Shown one piece after another: positions 13,985 through 31,627 of a stretch of 39,193 bases of DNA. Below the pieces are notes generated by a model that was not told the origin of the DNA, made no database searches, and was given only the letters and a program-made list of their open reading frames with translations. The DNA is taken from contig CANKKB010000003.1 in assembly GCA_947482555.1 (NCBI GenBank), forward strand, positions 1 to 39,193. Reading direction: 5' to 3'. This DNA is from Burkholderiaceae bacterium (lineage in GTDB: Bacteria; Pseudomonadota; Gammaproteobacteria; Burkholderiales; Burkholderiaceae). The translations under genes were made by a program, and so were the position numbers. The stretch's first letter is position 1, and each line of letters opens with the position of its first letter.

Positions 13985-14686
13985 CTATTTTCTACCAATA
14001 CCAAGACGTCTGCTGCGCACAATTTGATATGGGCGAAATAAATAGGTGATAGAGGCAAAGCCGCTCCAAATATGCACCAGCCGGGTAAAGGGAAAAATTA
14101 GAAACAGTGTCATCCCCAAAAACATATGTAGGCGAAATACCCAATTAACTCCACTTAATAACTCAACTGCACCGCCCTGAAATGCCATAATATGTTGCGC
14201 CCAACCAGCCAGCTTCAGCATCATCGAGCCATCTAAGTGAGATGCCGATAATGGAATTGTCGCTAACCCAAGTACCAGTTGTATCCATAAAATAAGTAAA
14301 AGTAAAATATCGCTAGGCTTACTAGTAAGCCGAATACGATCATCCATTAAACGCCGATACAATAAAATACTTAAACCAACCAATCCAAAGATGCCTGCAA
14401 TGCCGCCCGTTATCATAGCAACAAGTTGCTTATCACCGGCAGCAATAAAGGACTCATAAAAGAAATGGGGAGTGAGCATCCCAAAGAAGTGTCCAAAGAA
14501 CAAAAATAACACGCCAATATGAAATAACATACTACCTAAGCGTAGTTGTTTTTTACGCAATAGCTGGCTTGAATCACTTTTCCAAGTGTATTGATCGCGA
14601 TCAAATCGAATTAAACTGCCTAAAAAAAATATCGTTAGACATATGTAGGGATAAATTCCAAAAATAAATACCTCTAAATAGTTCAT
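13985..14686 (-). CDS. narI: Respiratory nitrate reductase, gamma subunit (cytochrome b)
   Basis: A 233-aa membrane anchor that oxidises quinol and passes electrons to NarH. It has five hydrophobic segments. All four heme b ligands match E. coli NarI in number as well as context: His56 and His66 (LFHIGVLFLFFGHFFGM), and His187 and His205 (FRLH and TRLVH). The C-terminus is basic (IVRSRRLGIGRK), as expected for the cytoplasmic side. The ATG overlaps the narJ stop in ATGA, implying translational coupling. It is the last core gene of narK1K2GHJI. Confidence 0.97.
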   Translation of the reverse strand: MNYLEVFIFGIYPYICLTIFFLGSLIRFDRDQYTWKSDSSQLLRKKQLRLGSMLFHIGVLFLFFGHFFGMLTPHFFYESFIAAGDKQLVAMITGGIAGIFGLVGLSILLYRRLMDDRIRLTSKPSDILLLLILWIQLVLGLATIPLSASHLDGSMMLKLAGWAQHIMAFQGGAVELLSGVNWVFRLHMFLGMTLFLIFPFTRLVHIWSGFASITYLFRPYQIVRSRRLGIGRK

Positions 14687-15360
14687 GCTTGAACTCCTTG
14701 TTTATCTTTAGCACGTTGAATAAAATGAAGTGGCTGTTCATCTCCCGGCTTGCCTTGGCCTTGAGTAGTGCATCCCCCAAATGCAGGAGGTTCTGCCCAA
14801 GTCTCGTCAATTGATTCGTCTTTAATCTTGAGGTCAAGGATTTTTACTTTCTCTCCAGAATATTCAATTGCAGCAGCGATTACCCATGCATACCTACTTT
14901 GGCGGGCTACTAATGCGCTATAAATTGAATTTAAAATATGTTCCATTTCTGCGATAAATTGCCTCGACTGAGCTAGCTCTAAAGTGGAAGCAAACTCCAG
15001 CACAATTGATAATTGATCTGGTAATTCATTGGTTGCAAGTATCAAGCCACCTGCCTTATAGGTCTGCAATAAATCAACCATCGCTTGTCCACGTTCACGT
15101 GAGTCGCCATGCACGTGCTCAAATAAATGCAAGGAGGTAGCCCTTCCCCGATCAAAATACTCTACATATTCCTCCTGCAGTACATAAAGATCTGTTGTTT
15201 TTAAATATTGTATTAACTCATTTAATCCAATTTCTACGGACTTGCTTATTTTCGGCAAGGCAATAACTATAGGCTTCATTTCTAATAAATTTTCACGAAG
15301 CTCGGCATCGGGATATTGAAGTAATCTAGATAAAGCACGTAGCGATAATAAATCTTTCAT
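14683..15360 (-). CDS. narJ: Nitrate reductase assembly chaperone
   Basis: A TorD/NarJ-type chaperone needed to load the molybdenum cofactor into NarG before membrane attachment; it is not part of the mature enzyme. The N-terminal LRALSRLLQYPDAELRENL and the later EEYVEYFDRGRATSLHLFEHVHGDSRERGQAM are strongly NarJ-like. The ORF track starts at 15366; the second ATG (15360) is six bases behind an AAGGGG ribosome site and is preferred (225 aa). It follows narH closely and overlaps narI by four bases. The C-terminal tail (GGCTTQGQGKPG) resembles the variable tail seen in NarJ proteins. Confidence 0.95.
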   Translation of the reverse strand: MKDLLSLRALSRLLQYPDAELRENLLEMKPIVIALPKISKSVEIGLNELIQYLKTTDLYVLQEEYVEYFDRGRATSLHLFEHVHGDSRERGQAMVDLLQTYKAGGLILATNELPDQLSIVLEFASTLELAQSRQFIAEMEHILNSIYSALVARQSRYAWVIAAAIEYSGEKVKILDLKIKDESIDETWAEPPAFGGCTTQGQGKPGDEQPLHFIQRAKDKQGVQA

Positions 15361-15370
15361 CTGCATCCCC

Positions 15371-16894
15371 TTAAGCGCTTAGGTTAATTGGAATCGTGCG
15401 GCGCTTAGTTCCACCAAAGAGGCTAGCTTCTGAATCCCCATCTGAACAGCCATTGCCGAATGTAAAACCGCAACTTCCCTTCATCTCAAATGTGTTTTCT
15501 GCATATTCACGATGCGTAGTGGGTATCACGAAACGATCTTCGTAGTTTGCAATTGCCATAATTTGATACATATCTTCAACTTGACTCGCAGAAATTCCGG
15601 CTTGATTTAAAGCGGCATGATTTTCAGTGCCATTGACATGTTTATCACGTTGCCAAGCTCGCATTGCAAGCATTTTTTCTAATGCAGCAACTACTGGAGC
15701 CTCATCTCCCGCCGTTAACATATTTGCCAAATATTGAATTGGAATGCGCAATTGCCTAACATCAGGAATATGGCCATTCACACCAACATATCCCGCCTCA
15801 ACTGCGCCAGTAATCGGAGAAAGTGGTGGCACATACCAAACCATGGGTAGGGTTCTATATTCAGGGTGCAGCGGCAAGGCAATTTTCCAGTCCATTGCCA
15901 TTTTGTAGACTGGACTTTTCTTAGCGGCATCTAACCAATTTTGCGGCACGCCGTCTTGTAAAGCTTGCTTTTGCACTACTGGATCATGTGGATCCAGAAA
16001 AATCTTTAATTGGGCTTCATATAAATTATTTTCTCCCTCAACGCTGGCAGCGTGTTCAATTTGATCAGCATCGTATAGCATGACACCCAAATATCGAATT
16101 CGACCTACACAAGTTTCTGAACAAACGGTAGGCTGTCCAGACTCGATGCGTGGGTAGCAAAAAATACACTTCTCAGCCTTACCACTCTTCCAGTTATAGT
16201 AAATCTTTTTATAAGGGCAGGCTGAAACACACATCCGCCAGCCGCGACACTTGTCTTGATCAATTAAGACAATGCCGTCTTCTTCGCGCTTATAAATTGA
16301 CCCCGACGGACATGAAGCTACACAGGCAGGGTTCAAGCAATGCTCACATAATCTTGGCATATACATCATGAAGGTATTTTCAAATTGCCCATAGACATCT
16401 TTTTGCATCTGATCAAAGTTGGTATCTTTACTCCGTTTAGAAAATTCACCACCTAAAATTTCTTCCCAGTTGGGTCCCCACTCAATTTTTTCCATTCGCT
16501 TCCCAGTAATTAAGCTTTTAGGCCGCGCAGTTGGGGTTGCCTTAGACTCTGGAGCATTTTGTAAGTGCTCGTAATCAAAGGTGAAAGGTTCGTAGTAATC
16601 ATCAATTTCAGGTAGATTAGGATTGCCAAATAAATTCATCCAGATTTTTGATCGACCGCCTTGCTTGGGCTCAAGCTTGCCATTACTTTTCCGAGTCCAG
16701 CCACCCTTCCACTTTTCTTGGTTTTCCCAATTTTTAGGATAACCAATACCAGGCTTTGTTTCTACGTTATTAAACCAGGCGTATTCCATGCCGGGACGAT
16801 TAGTCCAGACTTGTTTGCAGGTTACTGAGCAAGTATGGCAACCAATACATTTATCCAAGTTTAATACCATGCCAATTTGTGCGCGAATTTTCAT
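15371..16894 (-). CDS. narH: Respiratory nitrate reductase, beta subunit (Fe-S)
   Basis: A 507-aa electron-transfer subunit that carries four Fe-S clusters between NarI hemes and NarG. The cysteine groups are visible in order: CIGCHTCSVTCKQVW near the N-terminus, CEHCLNPACVASCP, CRGWRMCVSACPYKK, and CIFCYPRIESGQPTVCSETC. The Trp in CRGW replaces a cysteine and marks the [3Fe-4S] cluster, as in E. coli NarH. Length is normal. It sits 14 nt after narG with a good ribosome site (AAGGAA) and cannot be a formate dehydrogenase beta subunit given the flanking narG, narJ and narI. Confidence 0.97.
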   Translation of the reverse strand: MKIRAQIGMVLNLDKCIGCHTCSVTCKQVWTNRPGMEYAWFNNVETKPGIGYPKNWENQEKWKGGWTRKSNGKLEPKQGGRSKIWMNLFGNPNLPEIDDYYEPFTFDYEHLQNAPESKATPTARPKSLITGKRMEKIEWGPNWEEILGGEFSKRSKDTNFDQMQKDVYGQFENTFMMYMPRLCEHCLNPACVASCPSGSIYKREEDGIVLIDQDKCRGWRMCVSACPYKKIYYNWKSGKAEKCIFCYPRIESGQPTVCSETCVGRIRYLGVMLYDADQIEHAASVEGENNLYEAQLKIFLDPHDPVVQKQALQDGVPQNWLDAAKKSPVYKMAMDWKIALPLHPEYRTLPMVWYVPPLSPITGAVEAGYVGVNGHIPDVRQLRIPIQYLANMLTAGDEAPVVAALEKMLAMRAWQRDKHVNGTENHAALNQAGISASQVEDMYQIMAIANYEDRFVIPTTHREYAENTFEMKGSCGFTFGNGCSDGDSEASLFGGTKRRTIPINLSA

Positions 16895-16908
16895 TTTTAT
16901 TTTCCTTG

Positions 16909-19900
16909 TTACGCTTGTATAGCGTTCCTATTTTCACTATCTAGCCAATCAATCTTGCGCATTTTTCGAATGGTGACAAATTCATCGCGATTAGTGCCTA
17001 TAGTGCCGTAATAATTAAAGCCGTAACTGTATTGCGCATAACCACCAATCATATGGGTTGGCTTTAATACAATACGGGTTACCGAGTTATGAATACCACC
17101 ACGCATACCCGTAATTTCTGAGCCAGGAGTATTAATAATTTTTTCTTGGGCGTGGTACATCATGACCATCCCAGGATTAACGCGTTGACTAACTACTGCG
17201 CGTGCAGCAATAGCGCCATTAGCGTTATAAAGTTCCACCCAATCGTTATCTACAATTCCTGCATCACCCGCATCATCTTCACTGAGCCATACCACTGGGC
17301 CCCCGCGGTTTAAGGTCAACATCATCAAGTTATCGCTATATGTAGAATGGATTCCCCATTTTTGATGTGGCGTAATGAAATTCAGGACAATTTCTTTATT
17401 ACCATTAGGTTTAATCCCTTTAATACCATTAATTGTTTTTAAATCAACTGGTGGTCTATACGACACTAAACCCTCCCCAAATGCCCGCATCCATTTGTGA
17501 TCTTGATAAAACTGTTGCCGGCCAGTTAAGGTTCGCCATGGAATATATTCATGCACGTTGGTATATCCAGCGTTGTAAGAAACCTTTTCGCTTTCCAAGC
17601 CAGACCATGTTGGTGAACTAATAATTTTTCTAGGTTGCGCTTGAATATCTCTAAAGCGAATTTTTTCATCTTCACGATGTAAGGCTAAATGCGCATGCTC
17701 AAGACCGGTTATTTTCGATAAGGCATTCCAGGCCTTTACAGCCACATGACCATTAGTTTCTGGGGCAAGCATTAAAACCACTTCTGCTGCGTCAATATCT
17801 GTATTAATGTTAGCCATCCCCTTCATGGCTCCTTCTTTGACGCGCCCATTTAAATCACGTAGCTGCTCAACCTCATCTTTGGTGTCCCATGCAATACCTT
17901 TACCCCCATTGCCAACTTTCTCCATTAGTGGACCTAAGGCTGTAAACCGCTGATAAGTATTAGGGTAATCCCGTTCGACTACAGTAATTTGAGGTGCCGT
18001 TTTTCCAGGGATCAGCTCGCATTCGCCTTTTTTCCAATCATGCACATCAAACGCCTGAGCAAGCTCAGCAGGCGTATCGTGCATTAATGGTGTTAAAACA
18101 ATATCCTTTTCTACACCCAAATGACCAACGCAAACTTCGGAAAATTTCTTGGCAAACCCTTTGTAAATATCCCAATCACTGCGAGCTTCCCATGCTGGAT
18201 CTACTGCGGTCGATAAAGGGTGAATAAAAGGGTGCATATCGCTGGTATTTAAATCATTCTTTTCATACCAAGTTGCAGTAGGCAAAACAATGTCAGAATA
18301 TAAGCAGGTTGTACTCATGCGGAAATCTAACGTAACTAATAAATCTAATTTTCCTTCGGGTGCATGCTCATGCCAAGCTACCTCAGATGGCCTAGCCTCA
18401 TCGTTACCCAAATCCTTACCCTGCACTCCATGAGAAGTACCCAGTAAGTGCTTGAGAAAATATTCATGGCCTTTACCAGAAGATCCCAATAAGTTTGAGC
18501 GCCAGACAAACATATTTCGCGGCCAATTATTGGGATGATCAGGATCCTCACAGCTCATTTTTAATGAGCCCTCCTGCAAATTCTTTACCACATATTCTTT
18601 GGGATCGATTCCTGCAGCGATAGCATCTTTAGCCACATCTAATGGATTCGTTTTTAACTGTGGGGCTGAAGGTAACCAACCCATTCGCTCTGCACGAACG
18701 TTGTAATCAATCATACTACCTTGATAGTCAACCTTATTGGCTAAGGGTGAAAGAATTTCTTCCATCCCTAGCTTTTCATAGCGCCATTGATCTGTATGTG
18801 CATAGAAAAAACTGGTTGAATTTTGTTGACGCGGTGGGCGAATCCAATCTAAGGCAAAAGCCAAAGGAGTCCATCCTGTTTGCGGACGTAACTTTTCTTG
18901 ACCTACATAATGCGCCCATCCTCCGCCGCTTTGCCCTATACAGCCGCACATCATTAACATATTGATAATACCGCGATAATTCATATCGCAGTGATACCAG
19001 TGATTCATGGCGGCGCCAATAATCACCATTGACTTACCTTGCGTTTTTTCAGCATTGTCAGCAAACTGGCGAGCTACAGCAATTACTTGCTCCTGTTTGA
19101 CTCCAGTAATTAATTCTTGCCATGCGGGTGTATAAGGCACATTGTCATCATATGATTTTGCACTTTCGCCGCCTAAGCCTCTATTAATGCCATAATTTCC
19201 GGCTAATAAATCAAAGACTGTGGCAACATAAACTTCTTTTTTATTATCTTCTTCACCTAGGCTAATTTTTTTTGCAGGTACATTGCGAACTAATACATCG
19301 GTTTGTTTATTGCCATCAAAATGAGGTGTGGCAATTCCACCAAAATAGGGAAATCCAACTGGCACAATCTCATGCAATAACTGATCTTCCATGAGGGACA
19401 ATTTTAATTTTGTTTCTCGGTCATATTGCGCTTCTTTTGCTTCTAAATTCCACTTGCCTAAATCTTTGCGCCCATCCGGACCCCATCTAAAGCCAATCGA
19501 TCCATTGGGTACTACTGGTTTACCGCCAATATCAAATGCTACCGTTTTCCAATCAGCGCCATTGGTTTGCCCCAACTTACCCTCAAAATCACTCGTACGA
19601 ACATAACGGCCAGGGACAAGAATCGTCCTGCCATCCTCAATGACTTTTTCTTCTAGTATGACTAACATTGGCATATCGGTATAACGACGTACGTAATCGT
19701 CAAAATACGCAGTACGTTTATCAAAATAAAACTCTTTAAGAATGACGTGCCCCATTGCCATAGCGATAGCAGCATCGGTGCCTTGCTTTGGATGCATCCA
19801 AATATCAGCTAACTTTGAAACTTCTGCGTAGTCTGGAGTGATGGCTACGGTTTTAGCACCTTTGTATCGGACTTCGGTAAAAAAATGCGCGTCAGGTGTG

Positions 19901-20682
19901 CGTGTTTGTGGAACGTTTGAACCCCAGGCGATAATGAAGGTTGAGTTATACCAATCAGCTGACTCAGGGACATCAGTTTGTTCTCCCCATACCTGAGGGC
20001 TGGCAGGCGGTAAATCACAATACCAATCATAGAAGCTCATACAAACACCACCAATTAGACTCAGGTATCGCGAGCCTGCGGCGTAACTTACCATTGACAT
20101 TGCAGGGATGGGTGAAAAGCCAATAATACGATCAGGTCCATGTTGCTTAATGGTGTAAATATTTGCGGCGACAATTATTTCATTTACCTCATCCCATGAG
20201 GCCCTTACAAATCCACCCATTCCACGTTGTGCCTGCCACTCTTTACGTTTTTCTTGGTTTTCTACTAAATTGGCCCACGCATCAACAGGGCTTTTGGCAA
20301 TCGATTTTGCTTCACGCCATTGTTTAAGCAAGCGTCCTCGTATCATCGGGTACTTCACTCGATTCGCACTATACATGTACCAGCTATAACTTGCCCCCCG
20401 TGCGCAGCCTCGCGGCTCATGATTAGGTAAATCAGATCGAGTTCTTGGGTAATCTGTCTGCTGGGTTTCCCAAGTAACTATTCCACCCTTTACATAAATC
20501 TTCCATGAACAAGATCCAGTGCAATTAGTGCCATGCGTCGAACGCACAATCTTATCGTGCTGCCAGCGAGAACGATAGGCATCTTCCCAGGTGCGGTCTT
20601 CTGCAACTGTTTTACCGTGACCATTTGAAAATTTCTCAGAATCAACAGTTAAAAATTTCAGGCGGTCTAAAAAGTGACTCAT
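16909..20682 (-). CDS. narG: Respiratory nitrate reductase, catalytic alpha subunit
   Basis: A 1257-aa molybdenum enzyme that reduces nitrate to nitrite at the cytoplasmic face. The FS0 cluster ligands are visible as His50, Cys54 and Cys58 (THGTNCTGSC), with a fourth Cys in EPRGCARGASYSW. The molybdenum ligand is Asp223 in DWYCDLPPASPQ; the E. coli residue is Asp222. No twin-arginine leader is present, consistent with membrane-bound Nar rather than periplasmic Nap. Length equals the family norm. It follows narK2 by 20 nt, has an AGGA ribosome site, and shows no frameshift over its full length. It needs bis-MGD, whose biosynthesis genes are not in this window. Confidence 0.98.
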   Translation of the reverse strand: MSHFLDRLKFLTVDSEKFSNGHGKTVAEDRTWEDAYRSRWQHDKIVRSTHGTNCTGSCSWKIYVKGGIVTWETQQTDYPRTRSDLPNHEPRGCARGASYSWYMYSANRVKYPMIRGRLLKQWREAKSIAKSPVDAWANLVENQEKRKEWQAQRGMGGFVRASWDEVNEIIVAANIYTIKQHGPDRIIGFSPIPAMSMVSYAAGSRYLSLIGGVCMSFYDWYCDLPPASPQVWGEQTDVPESADWYNSTFIIAWGSNVPQTRTPDAHFFTEVRYKGAKTVAITPDYAEVSKLADIWMHPKQGTDAAIAMAMGHVILKEFYFDKRTAYFDDYVRRYTDMPMLVILEEKVIEDGRTILVPGRYVRTSDFEGKLGQTNGADWKTVAFDIGGKPVVPNGSIGFRWGPDGRKDLGKWNLEAKEAQYDRETKLKLSLMEDQLLHEIVPVGFPYFGGIATPHFDGNKQTDVLVRNVPAKKISLGEEDNKKEVYVATVFDLLAGNYGINRGLGGESAKSYDDNVPYTPAWQELITGVKQEQVIAVARQFADNAEKTQGKSMVIIGAAMNHWYHCDMNYRGIINMLMMCGCIGQSGGGWAHYVGQEKLRPQTGWTPLAFALDWIRPPRQQNSTSFFYAHTDQWRYEKLGMEEILSPLANKVDYQGSMIDYNVRAERMGWLPSAPQLKTNPLDVAKDAIAAGIDPKEYVVKNLQEGSLKMSCEDPDHPNNWPRNMFVWRSNLLGSSGKGHEYFLKHLLGTSHGVQGKDLGNDEARPSEVAWHEHAPEGKLDLLVTLDFRMSTTCLYSDIVLPTATWYEKNDLNTSDMHPFIHPLSTAVDPAWEARSDWDIYKGFAKKFSEVCVGHLGVEKDIVLTPLMHDTPAELAQAFDVHDWKKGECELIPGKTAPQITVVERDYPNTYQRFTALGPLMEKVGNGGKGIAWDTKDEVEQLRDLNGRVKEGAMKGMANINTDIDAAEVVLMLAPETNGHVAVKAWNALSKITGLEHAHLALHREDEKIRFRDIQAQPRKIISSPTWSGLESEKVSYNAGYTNVHEYIPWRTLTGRQQFYQDHKWMRAFGEGLVSYRPPVDLKTINGIKGIKPNGNKEIVLNFITPHQKWGIHSTYSDNLMMLTLNRGGPVVWLSEDDAGDAGIVDNDWVELYNANGAIAARAVVSQRVNPGMVMMYHAQEKIINTPGSEITGMRGGIHNSVTRIVLKPTHMIGGYAQYSYGFNYYGTIGTNRDEFVTIRKMRKIDWLDSENRNAIQA

Positions 20683-20702: not shown

Positions 20703-22085
20703 TTAGCAAGGCATTAGGGCATTTTTACGGCTGTAATACCACCAAGTGATCACTGTGCACGTAACATAAAAAACAATAAATGCATATAAAGCGGCCTCTG
20801 GACCGCCCGTTGCGGCGATTGATGAGCCATAACTTTTAGGTATAAAGAAACCACCATAAGCACCGACTGCGGAACTAAAACCCAGCACAGCTGCAGCCTC
20901 CTTATTGGCATCACGTATTGCCTGATCCTGTCCTGACTGTGTTTGACTCGCGACACGTTGACGTTCAGTGAGAAAAATAACAGGAATCATGCGAAAGGTA
21001 GAGCCATTACCAATACCGGAGGTAGCAAATAAAGCCATAAAAGCAATTAAAAAACCGAAGAAATTTCCGCCTGTTCCATGGCTGGGTAAATAATTTAAAA
21101 CAGCAAATACACCCACACTCATGGCAATAAAATTCCAAAAAGTGACTCTGGCTCCCCCTAACTTGTCAGATAACCATCCTCCAATAGGTCTAGCTAGGGC
21201 CCCAACTAAGGGGCCTAACCAGGCATAGCTCAAGGCATTTACTCCCGGAAATTGACTTTTAATTAGTAAGGGAAAGCCGGCAGAATAGCCAATAAAAGAT
21301 CCGAATGTACCTAGATAAAGCCAGCACATTAGCCAGTTATGTTTACGTTTAAAAATTACCGCCTGATCTGCGAAAGTTGCCTTTGCTTCAGCTAAATCAT
21401 TCATGCCAAACCAAGCAGCAATAGATGCTGTAGCAATAAAAGGTAACCAAATAAATCCCGCATTTTGCAACCAAAGCAAAGAAGTATTGCCTGCTTTAAT
21501 TACTATTTGAGGTTCGCCACCAAAAACACCAAATATTCCCGTTGTAATGACCAGCGGTACAACTAATTGCACAATCGATACTCCCAAATTACCTAATCCA
21601 GCGTTTAATCCTAAAGCTGTCCCTTTTTGTGCCTTCGGATAAAAAAAACTAATGTTTGCCATGGATGATGCAAAATTACCACCTCCAAATCCACACAACA
21701 ATGCGAGCAAGATAAATATTTCATATGGCGTAGCAGGATTTTGGACGGCCAAACCAATCCCAGCAGCTGGAATTAATAATGAAGCTGTTGAAATTGCAGT
21801 CCAACGACGGCCGCCAAAAATAGGTACTGCAAAAGAATAAAAAATACGCAGAGTTGCACCACAAAGTGCAGGTAGAGAGGCGAGCCAAAATAATTGATTA
21901 GTGGAGAATTTAAAGCCCACATTTGGTAAATTTACTACTACTACAGACCAAACCATCCAAACTGAAAACGCTAAGGTTAACGCCGGAATTGAAATTAATA
22001 AATTTCGTTTTGCTATAGCCTTACCGATTCCATCCCAAAATTGTTTATTTTCAGGATCCCAGCGTGTGATAACAGTAGAAGACAT
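20703..22085 (-). CDS. narK2: Nitrate/nitrite transporter, NarK family (second copy)
   Basis: A 460-aa major-facilitator protein of the nitrate/nitrite porter family with about 12 membrane segments. The nitrate signature appears as NAGLGNLGVSIVQLVVPL in the first half, and the start AFSVWMVWSVVVVNLP is NarK-like. The position just before narG and the paralogue upstream follow the narK1-narK2 order of Paracoccus, Pseudomonas and many betaproteobacteria, where one copy works mainly as nitrate/proton symporter and the other as nitrate/nitrite antiporter. I assign it as the NarK2 type from order and length. A GGAAGGG ribosome site precedes the ATG. Confidence 0.92.
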   Translation of the reverse strand: MSSTVITRWDPENKQFWDGIGKAIAKRNLLISIPALTLAFSVWMVWSVVVVNLPNVGFKFSTNQLFWLASLPALCGATLRIFYSFAVPIFGGRRWTAISTASLLIPAAGIGLAVQNPATPYEIFILLALLCGFGGGNFASSMANISFFYPKAQKGTALGLNAGLGNLGVSIVQLVVPLVITTGIFGVFGGEPQIVIKAGNTSLLWLQNAGFIWLPFIATASIAAWFGMNDLAEAKATFADQAVIFKRKHNWLMCWLYLGTFGSFIGYSAGFPLLIKSQFPGVNALSYAWLGPLVGALARPIGGWLSDKLGGARVTFWNFIAMSVGVFAVLNYLPSHGTGGNFFGFLIAFMALFATSGIGNGSTFRMIPVIFLTERQRVASQTQSGQDQAIRDANKEAAAVLGFSSAVGAYGGFFIPKSYGSSIAATGGPEAALYAFIVFYVTCTVITWWYYSRKNALMPC

Positions 22086-22111
22086 ATAAATCGCCCTTCC
22101 TTAATAGTAAA

Positions 22112-23377
22112 TTATTGAATTGCAGATGGAATGGCCTTGCCGCCCATTAGTTCAGAACGACGTACTTCAGTGAAATACATCCAAATGAGTGATACCCATA
22201 CCACTCCATACATCAACATAAATGCACTCGACCGAATACCCGTGATATCTAACAATGCACCAAATAAGATCGGCAATACAAAACCACCTAGCCCCCCTGC
22301 TAAGCCAACAATCCCTGAAATGGTGCCAATATTATTTGGATAGTCGTCGCCAATATATTTAAAGACACTTGCTTTTCCAAATGCCCAAGCAACTCCTAAA
22401 ATAAACATCAGCGCGGTAAATAAATAAATATTTAAACCAATATGAAAGGTTTCTGGTCCATTAATCGTTTGAATGATGAATTCAGTTGGAGGATAGGAAA
22501 GTAAAAAAAGGCATATCCAACTTACCCACATTACCCACCAAGTTACTTGGTGGGCGCCATACTTATCAGCAAACCAACCACCAATTGCGCGTAAAACCCC
22601 ACCTGGCAATGAAAAACATGCAGCCAATAATGCTGCAGTACGTATTTCTAGGCCAAACTCGCCTACGTAGTACTGAACCATCCATAAACTAAGGCCTACA
22701 TAGCCGCCAAATACAATGCTGTAATACTGGCAATAACGCAATACTTTGGGGTCTTTTAATGCCTTGAGTTGCTCTTTAAATGAGGTATTAGTCGTCACTA
22801 GATGCGTGGAATCGCTATAACTAAAAAACCAAAATAAAATAGCCGCACCAAGCATGACAGCCGCATAAACTTGTGGCACAACTGTCCAACCAAAAGCAAC
22901 TACTAATGCAGGCGCAATAAATTTATTTACTGCCGCGCCAGAATTTCCAGCACCAAAAACACCCATGGCAAAGCCTTGGCGACTATTTGGGAACCATCTC
23001 GCCACATAGGGAGTACCTACTGAGAAGGATCCGCCAGCCAAACCAACAAATAAACCGATTACTAAAAAATGCCAATATTGTGTTGCATATGACATCAGCC
23101 AGATTGGAATTACGCAAGCTAACATTAATGAAAGCATGACGATTCTTCCGCCATAGCAATCAGTCCATATTCCTAAAGGTACTCGAACTAAAGAACCCGT
23201 TAAGATTGGCATTGCAGTAAGAAAACCAAATTGTGTAGCGCTTAAATTAAGCGTTTTCTTAATAGGAATGCCAATCACGCCAAACATCATCCAGACCATG
23301 AAGCACACAGTAAAAGCAAGGGTACTTATAATTAGAACCGTATATGCTTTAGAATTTGTTTGAGTAATGGAACTCAT
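22112..23377 (-). CDS. narK1: Nitrate/nitrite transporter, NarK family (first copy)
   Basis: A 421-aa major-facilitator transporter. The nitrate signature is FGAGNSGAAVNKFIAPALV, and the N-terminus FTVCFMVWMMFGVIGIPI is typical of the NarK1 type. The ORF track adds six codons; the ATG at 23377 has a proper GGGAGA ribosome site and is preferred. It begins the narK1K2GHJI block and follows narL by a 125-nt gap. That gap holds the only sizeable regulatory space inside the cluster, including a NarL-like 7-2-7 inverted repeat and a possible GATAAT -10. It is related to, but clearly diverged from, narK2. Confidence 0.93.
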   Translation of the reverse strand: MSSITQTNSKAYTVLIISTLAFTVCFMVWMMFGVIGIPIKKTLNLSATQFGFLTAMPILTGSLVRVPLGIWTDCYGGRIVMLSLMLACVIPIWLMSYATQYWHFLVIGLFVGLAGGSFSVGTPYVARWFPNSRQGFAMGVFGAGNSGAAVNKFIAPALVVAFGWTVVPQVYAAVMLGAAILFWFFSYSDSTHLVTTNTSFKEQLKALKDPKVLRYCQYYSIVFGGYVGLSLWMVQYYVGEFGLEIRTAALLAACFSLPGGVLRAIGGWFADKYGAHQVTWWVMWVSWICLFLLSYPPTEFIIQTINGPETFHIGLNIYLFTALMFILGVAWAFGKASVFKYIGDDYPNNIGTISGIVGLAGGLGGFVLPILFGALLDITGIRSSAFMLMYGVVWVSLIWMYFTEVRRSELMGGKAIPSAIQ

Positions 23378-23483
23378 GAAAATCTCCCTTTTCATGAATC
23401 ATTATCAAAACTAAATTGACCTAGGAATATCCCCCAAAAAGAATATTTTAGAAATGCAAAGGAACTAGAATTTTCACCTTTAC

Positions 23484-23504
23484 TAGTCCTTTAGGACTAC
23501 TTCT
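23484..23504 (-). promoter_or_regulatory. Putative NarL 7-2-7 binding site upstream of narK1
   Basis: TAGTCCT-TT-AGGACTA (23484-23499) is a perfect 7-2-7 inverted repeat, and each arm matches 6 of 7 positions of the known NarL heptamer TACYYMT. An overlapping TACTTCT (23498-23504, plus strand) matches the heptamer fully. It is about 115 nt upstream of narK1 and abuts the narL stop codon. There is no T-run on either side, so a terminator is unlikely. Binding by the NarL encoded next door is an inference. Confidence 0.55.
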
Positions 23505-24165
23505 AAGGACAGAGCCTCTCTACGTTTGCAAATACGGCTACCTGTACTCGCGAGGAAAGATTTAATTTACGCAAAACATGCTGCACATGAATCTTGACCG
23601 TAGTATCAGCAATGCCAAGTTCACGAGCAATTACTTTATTACTCGAGCCCTTAGCAATTTGACAAACGATTTGCAACTCTCGAGGTGAGAGACTGGCAGC
23701 TAAAGAGTCACTAGTATTATTATCTAAATTATCTTTTTTACTAAATTTAAATGCAGTAACTAATTTATGAGTCATTTCCTGACTAATAACAGACTCGCCA
23801 TTAAATGCTTTTCGTATTCCAATAAGTAAATCGTCCTTTTCGCTAGTCTTTAGCAAATAGCCTTGAGCACCATTTTGTAAGGCTTGAATTAAATCAGCCT
23901 CATCTTCGCTCACTGTAAGCATAATGACTGTTACATCAGGAGCAGCGCGAAAAATATCTGGCAAAGATTGAATGCCGCTGGCACCAGGCAAGTGATTATC
24001 AAGCAAAACCACATCGGGATGCAAAGCCTCGCAAATTCGTAAAGCTCCAACCGCATCACCTGCCTCACCAATTACATCAAAATCAGGGGCTTGAGAGAGT
24101 AAAGAAATTAACCCCCTTCTAAAAAGAGTATGGTCATCAACTACAAGTATGCTAATTTTTTCCAA
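23503..24165 (-). CDS. narL: Nitrate/nitrite response regulator NarL
   Basis: A 220-aa NarL/FixJ-family regulator. The receiver domain has the acidic pair VVDDHTLFRRG (Asp10, Asp11), phospho-acceptor Asp56 (LLDNHLPG) and the Lys of LLKTSE. The LuxR-type DNA-binding domain reads LSPRELQIVCQIAKG through TTVKIHVQHVLRKLNL. It is 15 nt after narX, its likely kinase. The only available start is TTG (24165): an in-frame stop lies just upstream and no ATG or GTG occurs nearby, and no ribosome site is evident. Translation is therefore probably weak or coupled to narX. Confidence 0.93.
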   Translation of the reverse strand: MEKISILVVDDHTLFRRGLISLLSQAPDFDVIGEAGDAVGALRICEALHPDVVLLDNHLPGASGIQSLPDIFRAAPDVTVIMLTVSEDEADLIQALQNGAQGYLLKTSEKDDLLIGIRKAFNGESVISQEMTHKLVTAFKFSKKDNLDNNTSDSLAASLSPRELQIVCQIAKGSSNKVIARELGIADTTVKIHVQHVLRKLNLSSRVQVAVFANVERLCP

Positions 24166-24180
24166 TTAATTATTATTTAA

Positions 24181-26046
24181 TTAGGCACTCATCGAGGCTA
24201 AGTTAGGTAGACATAAATAAACTCTCGAGCCGCCATTTGGGGGGGAAGAAATAGTTACTTCGGCATTAATTTTACTAGCACGTTCTCTCATGATACTCAC
24301 CCCTACATGGGTACTATCCAATTTGTCTAAATCAATTAAAAAACCAATACCATCATCTACAACCTCAAAAGACCAAATCGGATTTTGCTGTACGGTTAGG
24401 GTAACAGTTTTCGCTTTAGCATGCTTTCTAATATTGGATAAAGCCTCTTGAATAATATGCAGTACTTGAATTTGCACATCAGGCGCCAAGGGTAATCCCT
24501 GACCATGCATTTTAAGGTTTACTTTAATGCCAAATTGGTGCTCAAATTTTTGCAACGTAGTCTTAATTGCCGATTCAATATCTTCATCATTTGTTCTAGT
24601 TCTATAGTGCAATAAAAGTTCACGCACATCACTATAACTCTCCCTCAAACCCTCATCAAGTTCATTTAAAATTGCTTTGACATTTGGCATTTGCAATGTA
24701 GATATTTCATCGCGTAATAAACTAGCTTGAATTTTTAAGAATGCCAAAGATTGTGCAATCGAGTCATGAAGCTCTCTAGCTAAGAGACTACGCTCATCAG
24801 AGATAGCAGCCTCCTTCTCTAAAGCCTTGATTCGCAATGCTTCCATCGCCCCCGCCAAATGATTGGCCAGGGTTTCAAGTAAAGCATGTTGCTCTTGATC
24901 AATAATGAATGATTCAACATAAAATAAATCAATTTCACCCAATAACTTCTGCTGAAAAAGTATAGGCACAGTAATAAGAGATTGAAAACCCGCTTTAACG
25001 CAAAATCGATCCTTCTCCTCGTTCAGGTTAAATTTAATTACCTTAATATCTTGTATACCTGTAGCGTTTCCACAATGGCATTCACCTGCATTCATACACT
25101 GCTCACCAGTCAAGATTGAATCTGGTAAATTTGTTCCGGATAATAAAAAATAACGCTTATTGGCTTCATCAGTCCACCGAATAGCAATTGCTGCGGCATG
25201 GCTAATCAATGAAACTCTATCAGCAAAACCTTTAGCCAGATTCTCTAAATTATTTTCACTCGAAACAAAAGAACTTAAATCATATAATGCAGCTAATCGC
25301 TCTTGGCGCTCTTGCAAGTGTATAGTTTTCTCGCGTACTTTTGCTTCTAGGCTCTCATATAAATCATTTAAATTTTCAGTCATAGCATTAAAACCTTGAG
25401 CCAAATCGCCAAATTCATCCTGGGCATCAATTTGTACATGGGTTTTTAATTTGCCTGACTTAACTTCATCAAATCCAATTCTTAACTTGGCAACGGGATC
25501 TAAAATAACAGAATAGCCAACATACATAATGACTAAAGTTGCCACCAAAGAAATAGCTAACATCGCAAATTGAAATAAATGCAATAGCCCAGTCCAGTAA
25601 TCAACCTCTTCCTCTATCAGCCCTACAAAGCGATCAATGCTAGAGATAAACTGATCGATATTCTGTACGGAAAGTACATTGGCCTGCTGTAAAGCAAGGC
25701 CATGTTTAATATCTTTCCATTGCGCTTGAATACTTAAAAAAACTTTAGTATTTGCCTGATTCCAAGGAACAAATAAAGGCCTAGATGGATCTCCCAGCCT
25801 CAACACTTGCATGCTTTCGTCAAATTTTTTCTCTAGTTGCGCAGCTAACTTTGACTTATTTTCGTTAATTAAAAGAGTAAGCTGATAGGTTTGCATTCGC
25901 ATTCTACCTGCCTCATTTATTGCTGCTGCACCACCTTCAAGCTTCCAAGTTACCCATAAGGTAAAGCTAATAGATATCATGGCTAGCACCAAGAGTGCTG
26001 TACCAATAATGACTAATTTATGTTTGAGGGTAAATTCGTTTCGCAT
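24181..26046 (-). CDS. narX: Nitrate/nitrite sensor histidine kinase NarX
   Basis: The ORF track start (26109) lies inside nrdJ; ATG 26046, after the nrdJ stop, gives 621 aa beginning directly before the first membrane segment. A periplasmic sensor follows with a P-box-like motif, INEAGRMRMQTYQL (43-56), which corresponds to the nitrate-binding helix of NarX/NarQ. A second membrane segment, a HAMP domain, a coiled region and a GAF-like module come next. The GAF-like module has clustered cysteines (CMNAGECHCG and FCVKAG). The HisKA_3 phospho-acceptor is His427 in RELHDSIAQSL, followed by an ATPase domain (EALSNIRKHAKA, DDGIGF). It phosphorylates NarL in response to nitrate or nitrite. Confidence 0.93.
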   Translation of the reverse strand: MRNEFTLKHKLVIIGTALLVLAMISISFTLWVTWKLEGGAAAINEAGRMRMQTYQLTLLINENKSKLAAQLEKKFDESMQVLRLGDPSRPLFVPWNQANTKVFLSIQAQWKDIKHGLALQQANVLSVQNIDQFISSIDRFVGLIEEEVDYWTGLLHLFQFAMLAISLVATLVIMYVGYSVILDPVAKLRIGFDEVKSGKLKTHVQIDAQDEFGDLAQGFNAMTENLNDLYESLEAKVREKTIHLQERQERLAALYDLSSFVSSENNLENLAKGFADRVSLISHAAAIAIRWTDEANKRYFLLSGTNLPDSILTGEQCMNAGECHCGNATGIQDIKVIKFNLNEEKDRFCVKAGFQSLITVPILFQQKLLGEIDLFYVESFIIDQEQHALLETLANHLAGAMEALRIKALEKEAAISDERSLLARELHDSIAQSLAFLKIQASLLRDEISTLQMPNVKAILNELDEGLRESYSDVRELLLHYRTRTNDEDIESAIKTTLQKFEHQFGIKVNLKMHGQGLPLAPDVQIQVLHIIQEALSNIRKHAKAKTVTLTVQQNPIWSFEVVDDGIGFLIDLDKLDSTHVGVSIMRERASKINAEVTISSPPNGGSRVYLCLPNLASMSA

Positions 26047-26059
26047 TTTCTTAATTAAG

Positions 26060-28471
26060 CTATCCACAGGTCCCGATAAATCCACAATTAGTGCAATATT
26101 CACAGCCATCTTTTTTAATTAATGCATGCGCACCACATTCTGGGCATTTCTTGCCCCTCATAATTCCTGGAGTATTTAATACTGCTGTCTTATTGCTGCT
26201 CTGAATATCTGTATGCGCATTAAATTCAGCGACACCACGCCTTATCAAAATGTTTTCAATGGCAAATGCAACTGCTGATACTTCAGAGTCATGCCACATT
26301 GGTACCTCGATACCGTCATCTTTTTTCCTAGTTCCCAGGCGAACTGGGCCGCGATCCCATGCAACTTTACGCATATCTCCTAGCGCTCTTACTAGAAATC
26401 CACCGCGTGCAGCCAATGAAAGGAGTCGCATACTTGAAGTAATCCATTGCTGCGATTCTCCACTTTGGCCTACTGGCATGAAAAATTCAATGGCTCGCTC
26501 AGATTGAACCTCTTCTCCATTAATAAACCCATGTACGTTTAAAAATGAAATAATTAAATATAGAGTTTTTTGCCCATCTTGAGTCCAGTAATTAATTTTT
26601 TCAGCTACAGCTGGTAACTCACCATTGGGTCGGCGATCTACTACTTTTTTAGATGGATTACCTCCCAGATTGGATGTATTTTTGGTTATTATTGGCAACT
26701 CTTCGGGCTGAGCTTCAATCACATGCAAAACTGAACCTAAAATTGAATTCGGTCGATAGGTTGTCAGGCCTTTTAAATTTGATTGCCAAGCCTTAAAATA
26801 TAAATTTACAAAACTTGCAAACGGATAATCGGCAGGGACATTAACTGTTTTTGATATGGCTGTATCAATATAGGGCTGCACTACCTCCATCATGGCAATA
26901 TGATCTTCCGCAGACATTGCTAAGGCGGTAATAAAATAGTCTGGTAAAGCATTTATATCTCCTCCCATTTCTTTAAATACTCGCCAAGCATGATCTTCTA
27001 CCGAGTACTCCCTGGTTGATCCATCAGTCTCTCTTTTTTTGCGCTGATAAGTCCAAGAAAATGGTGGCTCAATTCCATTGGAAGCATTATCAGCAAATGC
27101 CAGACTTACTGTTCCAGTTGGGGCAATTGAAAGTAAGTGACTATTCCGAATACCAAATTTACGAATCTCCGTTTTTAAATTGCTATCTAAACGACTAGCG
27201 AAATTTGTTCCGCCTAAATACCGCTCAATATCTAAAGCAGGAAAAGCACCCTTTTCTTTTGCTAAATCAACTGAAGCTTGATAAGCAGCATCTCGTAAAT
27301 GTTTTGCGATATTTTCTGCCTCAGATCTCCCTGCGCTGCTGTTATAAGCTAATTTAAGCATTATCAATGCATCACCAAGACCCGTAAAACCAACACCAAT
27401 ACGACGTTTCGATTGGGCCTCAATAGCTTGTTCTTTTAGAGGCCAATAGGTTACGTCTAGAACGTTATCCAGCATTCTCACTTGAATTTTTACTGCCTCA
27501 ATAAATCCAGGGTAATCAAACGATGCAGTTCCAGCAAATCCAAATGGATTAATAACGAATCGAGGCAAAATTATTGGACCTAAATCACAACATCCATATG
27601 GGGGTAAGGGCTGTTCGCCACATGGATTGGTAGCTTCAATAGATTCACAATAACTTAAATTATTATCACTATTAATATTATCTAAAAATAAAATCCCAGG
27701 TTCGGCAAAATCATATGCAGATTCCATCACTAGGAGCCAAATTTCTTTTGCCTTGATTGTTTGGTAAACCCAAAGTCCATCTGCACGTTGATGAACTTCT
27801 TGGGTAATATTTTTATTGCTTGGCTTGGCTTTATGAACTAAATCCCATAAGCCGTCTCTTTCAACTGCGCGCATAAATTTATCAGAAACGCCCACAGAAA
27901 TATTAAAATTATTCCAGCGCCCAGGGGTTCGCTTAGCATTAATAAAATCAAAAATATCGGGATGATCTATTTTTAGAACTCCCATTTGTGCGCCCCGCCG
28001 CGAGCCTGCACTTTCAACAGTAGAACAAGATTGATCAAATACATTGATATAACTACAAGGCCCAGAAGCAAATGATGCAGTTCCTTTTACCTCGGCACCT
28101 TTTGGCCGAATACGCGAAAAATCATAGCCAACTCCACCACCACGCCGCATAGTTTCTGCAGCTTGTTTTAAGGCCTCATATATTCCCGGAAAACCATCTT
28201 CATCAAAATCCTGAATGCAATCGCCAACTGGCTGCACAAAACAATTAATTAAGGTTGCTTGAATACCGGTTCCGCCAGTACTCATAATTCGACCAGCGCC
28301 AATTGCTCCTGCTAGCATATTTTTTAAAAATAAGGCTTCTATTTTTTTTTGTAAAGCTGGTAATTCAACAGCGGCCAAACCCATAGCTACTCTTTTAAAA
28401 ATAGCCTCAGCATCCTCTTCGCCAGGCTTAAGGTATTTTTCCTTTAAAACATCAATGCTAATTTGTTGCAT
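26060..28471 (-). CDS. nrdJ: Class II (adenosylcobalamin-dependent) ribonucleotide reductase
   Basis: An 803-aa reductase that makes deoxyribonucleotides without oxygen, using coenzyme B12. Active-site residues are visible: redox Cys77 (LINCFVQPVGD), the radical Cys284 and Glu286 (ATNPCGEQ) and the partner Cys at 294/295 (YGCCDLG). The loop SIAPTGTVSLAFADNASNGIEPPF matches NrdJ. The C-terminus ends in a zinc-ribbon CPECGA...CEYCTNCG followed by GTCG, characteristic of this class. No NrdB, NrdD or NrdG is present. It overlaps the upstream flavoenzyme gene by 14 nt and precedes narX by 13 nt, so it belongs to the nitrate-respiration transcript and probably supports DNA synthesis in anoxia. Confidence 0.95.
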   Translation of the reverse strand: MQQISIDVLKEKYLKPGEEDAEAIFKRVAMGLAAVELPALQKKIEALFLKNMLAGAIGAGRIMSTGGTGIQATLINCFVQPVGDCIQDFDEDGFPGIYEALKQAAETMRRGGGVGYDFSRIRPKGAEVKGTASFASGPCSYINVFDQSCSTVESAGSRRGAQMGVLKIDHPDIFDFINAKRTPGRWNNFNISVGVSDKFMRAVERDGLWDLVHKAKPSNKNITQEVHQRADGLWVYQTIKAKEIWLLVMESAYDFAEPGILFLDNINSDNNLSYCESIEATNPCGEQPLPPYGCCDLGPIILPRFVINPFGFAGTASFDYPGFIEAVKIQVRMLDNVLDVTYWPLKEQAIEAQSKRRIGVGFTGLGDALIMLKLAYNSSAGRSEAENIAKHLRDAAYQASVDLAKEKGAFPALDIERYLGGTNFASRLDSNLKTEIRKFGIRNSHLLSIAPTGTVSLAFADNASNGIEPPFSWTYQRKKRETDGSTREYSVEDHAWRVFKEMGGDINALPDYFITALAMSAEDHIAMMEVVQPYIDTAISKTVNVPADYPFASFVNLYFKAWQSNLKGLTTYRPNSILGSVLHVIEAQPEELPIITKNTSNLGGNPSKKVVDRRPNGELPAVAEKINYWTQDGQKTLYLIISFLNVHGFINGEEVQSERAIEFFMPVGQSGESQQWITSSMRLLSLAARGGFLVRALGDMRKVAWDRGPVRLGTRKKDDGIEVPMWHDSEVSAVAFAIENILIRRGVAEFNAHTDIQSSNKTAVLNTPGIMRGKKCPECGAHALIKKDGCEYCTNCGFIGTCG

Positions 28472-29678
28472 AATTATTTATCTTAGTTCCTGTTTCTGAT
28501 AACAGCCAATTAATTAAATCAGCCACTGAACGAATTTGATCGCCGAAGGGTAATGTTCCAGCCCCTCTAAAAAATAAACCTTTTTGGGTATCTCCTGTAA
28601 ATGCGCTCCCGAGAACTTTGTCTATACAAAATTGCCCCCAAGCAGCATTACCATCCCTTAAACCACAATCATGTAAGCAATCAAATACCATTGTGCATCT
28701 TGGCTTTTTACGTGCCTTATTTTTTAACTTGGCCTCGGCTTTCATATAATTTTTTAACCAAGGCGTCATTACTGCTCTTGCAGGTAAGCCTGCAACGCTT
28801 AAAAACTCAACCAGCTCTTCAGGCCTGGAGCCAGCTAGTACTTTTTTAAATGCCTCGTCTGCATCTCCCTCTAACGTTACCGCAAAGGCTGTGCCCAACT
28901 GAACCCCTGACACTCCCATGGACTGTAGTTTTTGAATGTCCTGTAAATTACTAATTCCACCAGCGGCAATTAAAGGAATTTGCCCCTCTATTCCCATCCT
29001 TTTAAAAAAATCCATTACCTGAGGAATAACATTTTCAAAATCGAATTTAGGATTATTAATGTCAGCTACTGAAGAAGCCCCCAGATGTCCTCCAGCTAAT
29101 TTAGGGTTTTCAATCACAATTGCATCTGGCAAGCGTCCTTTTTTCTCCCATTTTTTTACCAATATTTGCACACCCCTTGCCTCCGATAAGATGGGAATTA
29201 ATGCTGTGGCTGGATAACCAGCAGCTAAATCTGGCAGGTCAAGCGGCAACCCTGCGCCAACCACAATTGCATCAACACCGCTCTCTAAAGCACAAGCAAC
29301 ATAAGCCTCATATTCATTAACAGCACGCATAACATTAACTGCGATAAGTCCGAAACTACTCGAACCCTCTTGAGCCATCTTAATTTCTCTTTTCAAGGCC
29401 TCAAGGTTTGCTTGATTTATAGCCTTCTTACTTTCTACTGAAGGGGGAAGGTGTTGGGTCAGATCCATTAAATCTGGATGTAAGCGGCGTAAATCAATTG
29501 AAGAAATAGTCCCCATACCACCAATTTTTGCAACAGCGCCAGCTAAGCGATGGGCTGAAACCCCGACGCCCATGCCACCCTGTACTATCGGTAGAATAGT
29601 TTTACCTTTAATTGTCAAGCTTTTAAGTCCGCTTGAATCAAGCAGTTGATTAAATAATTGCGGTATTAAAGGATTCAT
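28458..29678 (-). CDS. Nitronate monooxygenase / 2-nitropropane dioxygenase-like flavoprotein
   Basis: A 406-aa TIM-barrel FMN protein of the NMO/FabK-like family. Supporting segments are PIVQGGMGVGVSAHRLAGAVAKIGGMGTIS at the N-terminus, IVVGAGLPLDLP, GGHLGAS, LIAAGGISNLQDIQ and GVQLGTAFAVT (the phosphate-binding part). It has a C-terminal extension with a cysteine cluster (CTMVFDCLHDCGLRD), which standard NMOs lack to my knowledge. It is coupled to nnrS by an ATGA overlap and to nrdJ by a 14-nt overlap. Nitronate oxidation is the family function; a different flavin-dependent role in anoxic nitrate respiration is possible. Confidence 0.88.
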   Translation of the reverse strand: MNPLIPQLFNQLLDSSGLKSLTIKGKTILPIVQGGMGVGVSAHRLAGAVAKIGGMGTISSIDLRRLHPDLMDLTQHLPPSVESKKAINQANLEALKREIKMAQEGSSSFGLIAVNVMRAVNEYEAYVACALESGVDAIVVGAGLPLDLPDLAAGYPATALIPILSEARGVQILVKKWEKKGRLPDAIVIENPKLAGGHLGASSVADINNPKFDFENVIPQVMDFFKRMGIEGQIPLIAAGGISNLQDIQKLQSMGVSGVQLGTAFAVTLEGDADEAFKKVLAGSRPEELVEFLSVAGLPARAVMTPWLKNYMKAEAKLKNKARKKPRCTMVFDCLHDCGLRDGNAAWGQFCIDKVLGSAFTGDTQKGLFFRGAGTLPFGDQIRSVADLINWLLSETGTKINNYATN

Positions 29679-30829
29679 TTTGTAGCTTTAATGAAGTCTG
29701 CAGAAAACATCATTGGAGTGTATTTATACAAATACAGAAAATAAGCTAGGCACCAACAAGCACCTGAAATAATCAGCAAGGAATTAAATAAATTACTTGG
29801 TGCCAGATGCGCTATTAACCAAAAAGCGGCTGCACAAGGCACTAATAAGTAACATGCATGCTCGATCTTTCCAGCAACCAATGGTCTGCCAGTATGGCCA
29901 AGTGCGGTACGCGTAATCATTCCAATAATTAAACCCCCAGTAGCCCCAATTCCAAAAGCATGCAAGGCAGGATAGATCGAAACTAATTTAAGCGAGTAAA
30001 TGCCTAATAAAAAAAAGCCAAACACAAGCCAAGCATATGAGATATGTAATATCCATAAAATTGGTTTATTTTTAGTTGCAAGTGGTCGCCAGCCCCACAG
30101 CAAAATGGCATGTAACGTGGCAGTTATAAAACATAAGACAGCTGAAATAATATTGGGTGTAAAAAATGCTAGGGTTAAAAATGATATCGCGGTAAATATT
30201 AATGTTGCTTTGGCTATAGTAGGATGACGAAATTGCTGAATTCCAGGAATCGCATTTGCAGTAAAACTTGGTATAACTCTGCCGCCAATCATGACTTCAA
30301 TCATGGTGATTAAATACAAAGCAATAAAAAGTAAAGGATTTGGATCGATTGCTATGTAACCTAAAGCTGCTAAATAAAAAATTCCATTCAAAAAACCTAA
30401 TCCCAAAAGAATCATCGGGAGAAAAAGATTTCTAAGCATTCGACGTCGATAAATTAACCGCCCAATCACAATTGCAATTACCGGAAGAAATGCGACGTCA
30501 AAAATAGCAAAAAATGGATTTAGAAAAGGGCCAATGCGTCCTGAAAGCCACAAAAGAACTAGCAAAGCCAAAGAGAGGCCTTTGGGGGTTTCTAAACCGG
30601 TCCAGGCTCGAACGGCTGTTAAAGAAAATCCCGCAATGACAGTGGCAGCAAAGCCAAACAGCATTTCATGAGCATGCCATTGCATGCCCACTATCAATTG
30701 CTGCCTCCGTAAGCTATATCCATTTAACTCTAAAAGCCACTCAAATAAGGCTAGCGCAGACCACAAAGCGGCACATAAATAGAATGGTCTAAACCCTAAG
30801 GAAAAAATTGGGGGAGTTCTGCTTCTCAC
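29675..30829 (-). CDS. nnrS: NnrS family heme-copper membrane protein
   Basis: An integral membrane protein of about 12 segments. The family signature is at the N-terminus: FSLGFRPFYL, then MQWHAHEMLFGFAATVIAGFSLTAVRAWTG. Later conserved parts include GGRVIPSFTAN and MITRTALGHTGRPL. NnrS proteins bind heme and copper and protect against nitric-oxide-related iron stress in denitrifiers. The ORF track starts at TTG 30847; GTG 30829, eight bases behind GGAG, is the better start (384 aa). It leads the nitrate-respiration block and is preceded by an FNR-type box and a NarL-type heptamer. Confidence 0.93.
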   Translation of the reverse strand: MRSRTPPIFSLGFRPFYLCAALWSALALFEWLLELNGYSLRRQQLIVGMQWHAHEMLFGFAATVIAGFSLTAVRAWTGLETPKGLSLALLVLLWLSGRIGPFLNPFFAIFDVAFLPVIAIVIGRLIYRRRMLRNLFLPMILLGLGFLNGIFYLAALGYIAIDPNPLLFIALYLITMIEVMIGGRVIPSFTANAIPGIQQFRHPTIAKATLIFTAISFLTLAFFTPNIISAVLCFITATLHAILLWGWRPLATKNKPILWILHISYAWLVFGFFLLGIYSLKLVSIYPALHAFGIGATGGLIIGMITRTALGHTGRPLVAGKIEHACYLLVPCAAAFWLIAHLAPSNLFNSLLIISGACWCLAYFLYLYKYTPMMFSADFIKATK

Positions 30830-30982
30830 CTTATATACTCCAATCAATTTTATAAATAAGCTTACCGCGCCACGGCATTACTGGCAATGCCAGCATTCTC
30901 AACCTATTAATGGAGAAATGAAATAGCTCTATAGAACTACCCTTGAGTATAGGGTCTACACCCTCTAAAAAACATGGTTCCT

Positions 30983-30996
30983 TTGCGCTAGATCAA
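30983..30996 (-). promoter_or_regulatory. Putative FNR/Anr-type box upstream of nnrS
   Basis: Read on the minus strand the site is TTGATCTAGCGCAA, against the known FNR consensus TTGAT-N4-ATCAA: one half is perfect and the other matches three of five. It is centred about 160 nt before the preferred nnrS GTG. With the usual -41.5 placement, transcription would start near 30948, and a loose -10 (TGTAGA, with TATACT slightly further on) lies in that area. This fits anaerobic control of the whole cluster, but a regulator gene is not in the window. Confidence 0.6.
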
Positions 30997-31026
30997 ATAA
31001 TTAACTAGATTTATTACTTTTTAGTA

Positions 31027-31033: not shown

Positions 31034-31082
31034 AGCTAAAAACACTAAAGTAATTGCAATCCTTGTGCCAACCAAGTTGAAC

Positions 31083-31615: not shown

Positions 31616-31627
31616 ATTGATTCTCAA

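Follow-up and report, generated by a model that had tools for sequence, protein, structure and literature searches.

UfaA, a predicted FabX-type enzyme encoded between nnrS and nrdJ in a nitrate-respiration operon of Polynucleobacter

The ufaA locus and the family of its product

The stretch of DNA analyzed here (the window) comprises 39,193 nucleotides of contig CANKKB010000003.1 (assembly GCA_947482555.1), from a member of the genus Polynucleobacter (Burkholderiaceae). Its minus strand carries, at 28458..29678, an open reading frame (ORF) with an ATG start that encodes 406 amino acids. It is located between nnrS (29675..30847; Pfam NnrS, 314 bits), the first gene of the local run, coding for a nitric oxide (NO)-response membrane protein, and nrdJ (26060..28471), coding for an adenosylcobalamin-dependent class II ribonucleotide reductase (NCBIfam NrdJ_Z, 561 bits with a cut-off of 400; Pfam RNR large chain, 419 bits). 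The gene order on this strand is nnrS-ufaA-nrdJ-narX-narL-narK1-narK2-narGHJI. The product of 28458..29678 is not an ordinary nitronate monooxygenase (NMO). The gene is very likely ufaA, encoding an enzyme of the FabX type that depends on flavin mononucleotide (FMN), and probably on a [4Fe-4S] cluster, and that provides unsaturated lipids without oxygen.

The original prediction had described overlaps of 4 nt with the upstream and 14 nt with the downstream neighbour, and both are confirmed by the ORF coordinates: the sequence AAATGA holds the TGA stop of nnrS and the ATG start of ufaA, and nrdJ starts 14 nt inside ufaA. The 14-nt overlap is present in both nar-type Polynucleobacter genomes compared (G214 and G239). 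The 4-nt overlap recurs in G214, the closest relative (ufaA 94% identical), whereas in G239 nnrS ends 33 nt ahead of the ufaA ORF. With the overlaps conserved only in part, the proposed linkage of ufaA dose to both neighbours is stronger for nrdJ than for nnrS.

The ufaA product matches the Pfam NMO model with 116.8 bits (cut-off 28), and an NCBIfam scan gave no model above its cut-off. When phmmer was run against solved structures, the best PDB match was FabX of Helicobacter pylori (E 4e-53, 184 bits); all characterised NMO or FabK proteins gave E-values of 6e-9 or worse and the best characterised NMO reached 39 bits, so that by sequence the product is not closest to the characterised NMOs, as a class I NMO would be. 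With a profile of 37 relatives, the E-values were 1.6e-69 for FabX, 3e-19 for FabK and 2e-13 for NMO. The structure predicted with AlphaFold (mean predicted local distance difference test, pLDDT, of 87; predicted template modelling score, pTM, of 0.88) has a confident barrel. Foldseek ranked FabX (7e1q) first, with an E-value of 3.8e-32, and the five best fold matches were all FabX crystals. The product has the TIM barrel of the NMO fold together with the FMN residues and the catalytic His, as expected of a UfaA/FabX enzyme, and the "nitronate monooxygenase" label in public annotation is probably wrong for the UfaA/FabX branch.

FabX (HP0773), which is 37% identical to UfaA here, is a decanoyl-acyl carrier protein (ACP) dehydrogenase/isomerase that contains FMN and an atypical [4Fe-4S] cluster, with C300, C304, C308 and C320 as ligands; H182 has a catalytic role, and FabX has the Cys tail where FabK has its NAD(P)H-binding part (PMC8626469). 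Besides the fold and the FMN site, both proteins share the catalytic residue: the codon of His198 (29085..29087, minus strand), the equivalent of FabX His182, is invariant in 59 of 59 homologues. The FMN and catalytic residues of FabX (G22, G23, M24, N99, E175, H182, Q240 and T243) are all invariant in these homologues. Likewise, the ACP-docking helix is basic in every homologue (K152 replaced by Arg, R160 and R164 by Lys or Arg). Differences are found at FabX T340 and A242, which are Arg and Gly in UfaA here, and at T130, which is not conserved in the homologues (Leu).

The C-terminal cysteine group pointed out in the original prediction is the string CTMVFDCLHDCGLRD, residues 328-342 of UfaA; a fourth invariant cysteine, C351, within GQFC, had been missed. 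The entire tail, C328-X5-C334-X3-C338-X12-C351 (28626..28697, minus strand), contains the probable [4Fe-4S] ligands. Since CX5CX3CX12C occurs in 153 of 153 distinct homologues, the tail is not a chance feature, and neither is it extra to this gene, as had been proposed, but family-wide in the UfaA/FabX branch. In an alignment of 37 sequences, no cysteines other than C328, C334, C338 and C351 are invariant. The last three align with the FabX ligands C304, C308 and C320; the position of FabX C300 is not Cys here, and the invariant C328 precedes that position by two residues (CX5C, against CX3C in FabX), a displacement common to the gonococcal protein. The Cys loop of the model (residues 322-350) has a pLDDT below 50, and thus no claim is made on metal-site geometry. 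Of the metal-binding or redox role suggested earlier for these cysteines, metal binding is probable, by homology to the [4Fe-4S] tail of FabX.

UfaA of Neisseria gonorrhoeae (NGO1024), like UfaA here encoded by an N-oxide-respiring bacterium, is 53.7% identical over 382 residues and has an identical CX5CX3CX12C tail. The comparison was of the proteins; here, ufaA is placed within the nnrS-ufaA-nrdJ-narXL-narKK-narGHJI run. NGO1024 is required for anaerobic unsaturated fatty-acid synthesis in N. gonorrhoeae (PMC11300592), and it is induced about 10-fold anaerobically, with co-induction of an electron-transfer flavoprotein (ETF)-ubiquinone oxidoreductase (PMC3032703). The gonococcal sequence that we compared (L216, a record with no locus tags) would correspond to NGO1024, since the record gave no other match and in view of the 55% identity between RSc0114 and UfaA. 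RSc0114 of Ralstonia solanacearum, for which this identity to the gonococcal protein was reported, has been proposed to act in unsaturated fatty-acid synthesis (PMC4549310). It belongs to the same family as UfaA here, and where the sampled loci of such family members are from Burkholderiaceae outside Polynucleobacter, most show no linkage to nar. The separate function that had been considered plausible for this gene is likely; the function of the UfaA/FabX branch, unsaturated fatty-acid synthesis, is already published.

Some further sequences came up along with the family. NZ_CP119142.1 and NZ_CP119140.1, two gonococcal records as large as a chromosome (2.17 Mb), are classed as plasmids in the plasmid collection. 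One match, on a viral contig, is among the weakest of the UfaA family (53%) and may represent host flank. Four Polynucleobacter genomes (G213, G314, G320 and G326) have a second NMO-fold protein, only 35% identical. Genes of this second type are found at L209:5157-6413, L210:5644-6894 and L211:5319-6575; the protein encoded at L209 carries a Cys-rich tail of another kind, CLCTHMSNFNCWTC. The gene adjoins RuvB/RuvA/RuvC-like genes in L209 and L211, and has other neighbours in L210.

Neighbours of ufaA and FNR-type boxes

Within a genus sample of 186 species, identified as Polynucleobacter from named loci, ufaA is present in 29. A full narG is found in 20 species, 18 of which have ufaA; in the remaining two, the contig breaks off before the expected place of ufaA. 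Class II nrdJ occurs in about 26 of the 29 ufaA genomes vs. about 5 of the 157 others. G338 and G319 were confirmed as ufaA-nrdJ pairs, and G316 and G318, among the five nrdJ genomes without ufaA, are uncertain. The ufaA-nrdJ pair lies without a nearby nar gene in six Polynucleobacter, and in four further ones ufaA is near nnrS, with a NirK-like copper nitrite reductase in between in at least two of them. In two loci without narG (L061:8014-9480 and L059:1946-3415), ufaA is followed by a NirK-like enzyme with a fused cytochrome c domain and then by nnrS. UbiU/V, for O2-independent ubiquinone synthesis, was considered as a further member of the Polynucleobacter package but is not supported: the own genome and G214 lack any U32 protein, and in most congeners there is one U32 gene rather than a UbiU/V pair, which is mostly missing in Polynucleobacter with ufaA.

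Beyond the genus, we examined 52 named loci in which ufaA is flanked by 5 kb or more on each side. Genes for nar and/or nrdJ are next to ufaA in 33 of them; counted separately, nar is a neighbour in 27, nrdJ in 21 and nnrS in 7, the nnrS linkage being the least conserved. The arrangement narK-narGHJI-ppiC-carbonic anhydrase-ufaA is found in Polaromonas and Variovorax, in most of them with nrdJ coming next, and the ufaA-nrdJ pair recurs in Comamonadaceae. In Aquabacterium, ufaA lies beside narX and is divergent from narL. On plasmid pHG1 of Cupriavidus necator, it is located between UbiT/U/V-like genes and narXL/nnrS/narK/nar genes, near nosZ; there (NC_005241.1:271518-275416, L214) ufaA is divergent from the UbiT/UbiV/UbiU-like genes, another O2-independent substitute. 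A phylogeny of the NMO-like proteins located next to nar, nnrS or nrdJ had been suggested as a check. On a tree built without the FabX outgroup, which was dropped for its absurd branch length, parsimony gives at least 19 changes of nar/nrdJ linkage, at least 10 of them forced by supported branches. Linkage was therefore gained or lost repeatedly, and the association is recurrent rather than a single inherited neighbourhood.

The 420 nt upstream of ufaA were scanned for strict FNR-type boxes, defined as TTGAY-N4-RTCAA. Such a box is present in 33 of 149 distinct loci vs. 4 in an equal in-gene stretch, and base shuffles predict 0.12. Each of the eight ufaA-led operons of Polynucleobacter that were scanned first has the box; a ninth, L058, has none. 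In the window, a degenerate FNR-like site with two mismatches, TTGATCTAGCGCAA (30983-30996, 5′ of nnrS), is similarly frequent in shuffles. As this only candidate is no better than chance, no FNR box is claimed for the operon of the window.

Downstream of nrdJ, the minus strand continues with a narX/narQ-type sensor kinase gene (24181..26109; NCBIfam NarQ/NarX-like, Pfam PilJ-HAMP-HisKA_3), whose true start is probably 3′ of the listed ATG, since the listed ORF overlaps nrdJ by 50 nt. Then come the narL response regulator gene (23503..24165; NCBIfam NarL, 204.8 bits), the nitrate/nitrite transporter genes narK1 and narK2 (20703..23395; NCBIfam NarK family) and the nitrate reductase genes narGHJI (13985..20682; narG, TIGR01580 2213 bits; narI, Pfam 263.6 bits), narH and narJ being assigned from position and similarity to relatives. 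The last gene of the nar operon (13362-13949) encodes a nitroreductase-family protein (PF00881), and relatives of it, 44-48% identical, lie 3′ of nrdJ in the nar-ufaA-nrdJ clusters of Polaromonas and Variovorax. On the other side, the region 5′ of nnrS (30848-31900) has short ORFs only on that strand. One of these (31176-31499) resembles, as judged by eye, a broken gene for a tripartite tricarboxylate-type solute-binding protein, which suggests that the operon was inserted beside a decayed gene. The nrdJ genes of L055, L062, L064, L096 and L120, from Polynucleobacter and a relative, carry after ATNPC an in-frame insert of about 350 amino acids. The insert is intein-like, ends in HN or GQ before Cys and is of two different sequence types at one site; nrdJ of the window is without it.

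Fatty-acid genes of the host and alternative readings

The genome assembly to which the window belongs has 1.95 Mb and is 78% complete. In this partial assembly FabA was not detected, the sole FabA-fold match being FabZ. It encodes a DesA-family desaturase (score of 632, cut-off 400), as well as the class I ribonucleotide reductase NrdA and NrdB. DesA desaturases and class I ribonucleotide reductases are both O2-dependent, and hence the routes by which the cell would identifiably make unsaturated lipids and deoxyribonucleotides in air both need oxygen. In a set of 300 Burkholderiales genomes, UfaA is present in 105 and FabA in 19, and they never occur together (expected overlap 6.65; hypergeometric P of 2e-4), so that every UfaA genome lacks FabA. 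Four families, and also a single genus, contain switches between UfaA and FabA.

The public name of the homologues, "nitronate monooxygenase family protein," the name of the Pfam family and the placement of the gene among N-oxide genes would all agree with an ordinary NMO that detoxifies nitronates or nitro compounds from nitrate/nitrite metabolism, or that uses low oxygen. We consider this highly improbable, as FabX is matched far better than the characterised NMOs, in whose matches the Cys tail is missing, many homologues lie distant from any nitrogen gene, and such an enzyme leaves the anaerobic operon, the FNR boxes and the exclusion of FabA unexplained. The remark in the original prediction that an oxygen-consuming NMO would be odd in an anoxic operon thus holds. 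It had also been argued that clustering with ordinary NMOs sharing the tail but not linked to nitrate genes would speak against a special function. The outcome is mixed: the gene clusters with a broad family that has the tail and in which nar is no neighbour at about half of the loci sampled, but this family is not one of ordinary NMOs.

An enoyl-ACP reductase of the FabK type, devoted to the last step of saturated fatty-acid elongation under anaerobic conditions, is just as improbable. FabK (enoyl-ACP reductase II) is the family that comes closest after FabX, and a crude motif detected no FabI signature among 12 short-chain dehydrogenase/reductase loci taken from the incomplete own genome. 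FabK and PfaD have in common with UfaA the NMO fold and the FMN site, but where UfaA has the Cys tail they carry an NAD(P)H domain, just as FabK does in comparison with FabX (PMC8626469), catalyze the opposite reaction and score far under the cut-off (65.3 bits for the FabK equivalog TIGR03151, cut-off 453.1). Moreover, with ufaA in so few congeners its product is not their required reductase, and an enoyl-ACP reductase would not exclude FabA. Slightly more improbable still is a redox or NO sensor, or an accessory protein of the nnrS/nar system, with a Cys cluster that senses NO or oxygen: ufaA overlaps nnrS, and Fe-S sites can sense NO, yet nnrS is a far rarer neighbour than nrdJ or nar, the full set of catalytic residues is kept and the gonococcal homologue is biosynthetic.

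Several observations weigh against a FabX-type role without oxygen. H. pylori FabX requires oxygen as acceptor (PMC8626469), so that the FabX mechanism is not transferable unchanged. The first cluster Cys is shifted by two residues with respect to FabX, in a loop modelled with very low confidence. Half of the UfaA family loci are without a nar or nrdJ neighbour, and no strict FNR box was found 5′ of nnrS in the operon that this gene leads in the window. Given the completeness of the own genome, the lack of FabA rests on relatives too, and the co-occurrence P values are inflated by shared ancestry.

Proposed role of UfaA without oxygen

In the FabX-type role that we favour, UfaA would oxidize a medium-chain saturated acyl-ACP (decanoyl-ACP in the case of FabX) to the 2-enoyl and then to the cis-3-enoyl form, and the cis-3 intermediate would be elongated to unsaturated fatty acids. 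When oxygen is available, the DesA desaturase could be used for unsaturated lipids. Without oxygen DesA would be idle, and UfaA would supply these lipids during nitrate respiration; it would be needed because FabA seems to be lacking as a fallback. The gene is probably co-transcribed with nrdJ, and the rationale would be shared, as class II ribonucleotide reductase stands in for the O2-dependent class I enzyme. An O2-independent UfaA would explain the place of its gene between nnrS and nrdJ in a nitrate-respiration operon.

The electron acceptor of UfaA would not be oxygen but probably the respiratory chain, reached via a carrier. The co-induction of the gonococcal ETF-ubiquinone oxidoreductase and the repeated coupling to nitrate/nitrite reductases make a putative route into the quinone pool attractive. 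A bolder and rather doubtful proposal is that ufaA-nrdJ is a portable "oxygen-substitution" cassette, in which UfaA would pass electrons of acyl-ACP, via its reduced flavin and Fe-S cluster, to a respiratory chain ending in nitrate or nitrite. If this were true, denitrification would drive membrane-lipid desaturation. The coupling of ufaA to nrdJ and its repeated placement in nitrate operons may be less known than the enzymes themselves; a literature search found no paper on the coupling, which is weak evidence of absence. Polynucleobacter, Polaromonas, Variovorax and Cupriavidus, all culturable genera, offer settings for the question of the anoxic electron acceptor of UfaA.

Bacteria lacking FabA need oxygen for their desaturases, and whether they can make membranes anoxically decides whether nitrate respiration can sustain life. 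The data presented here link a protein widely, and probably wrongly, labelled as "nitronate monooxygenase family protein" to an anoxic unsaturated-lipid job across the Burkholderiales, its gene being repeatedly packaged with an O2-independent ribonucleotide reductase and with nitrate reductase.

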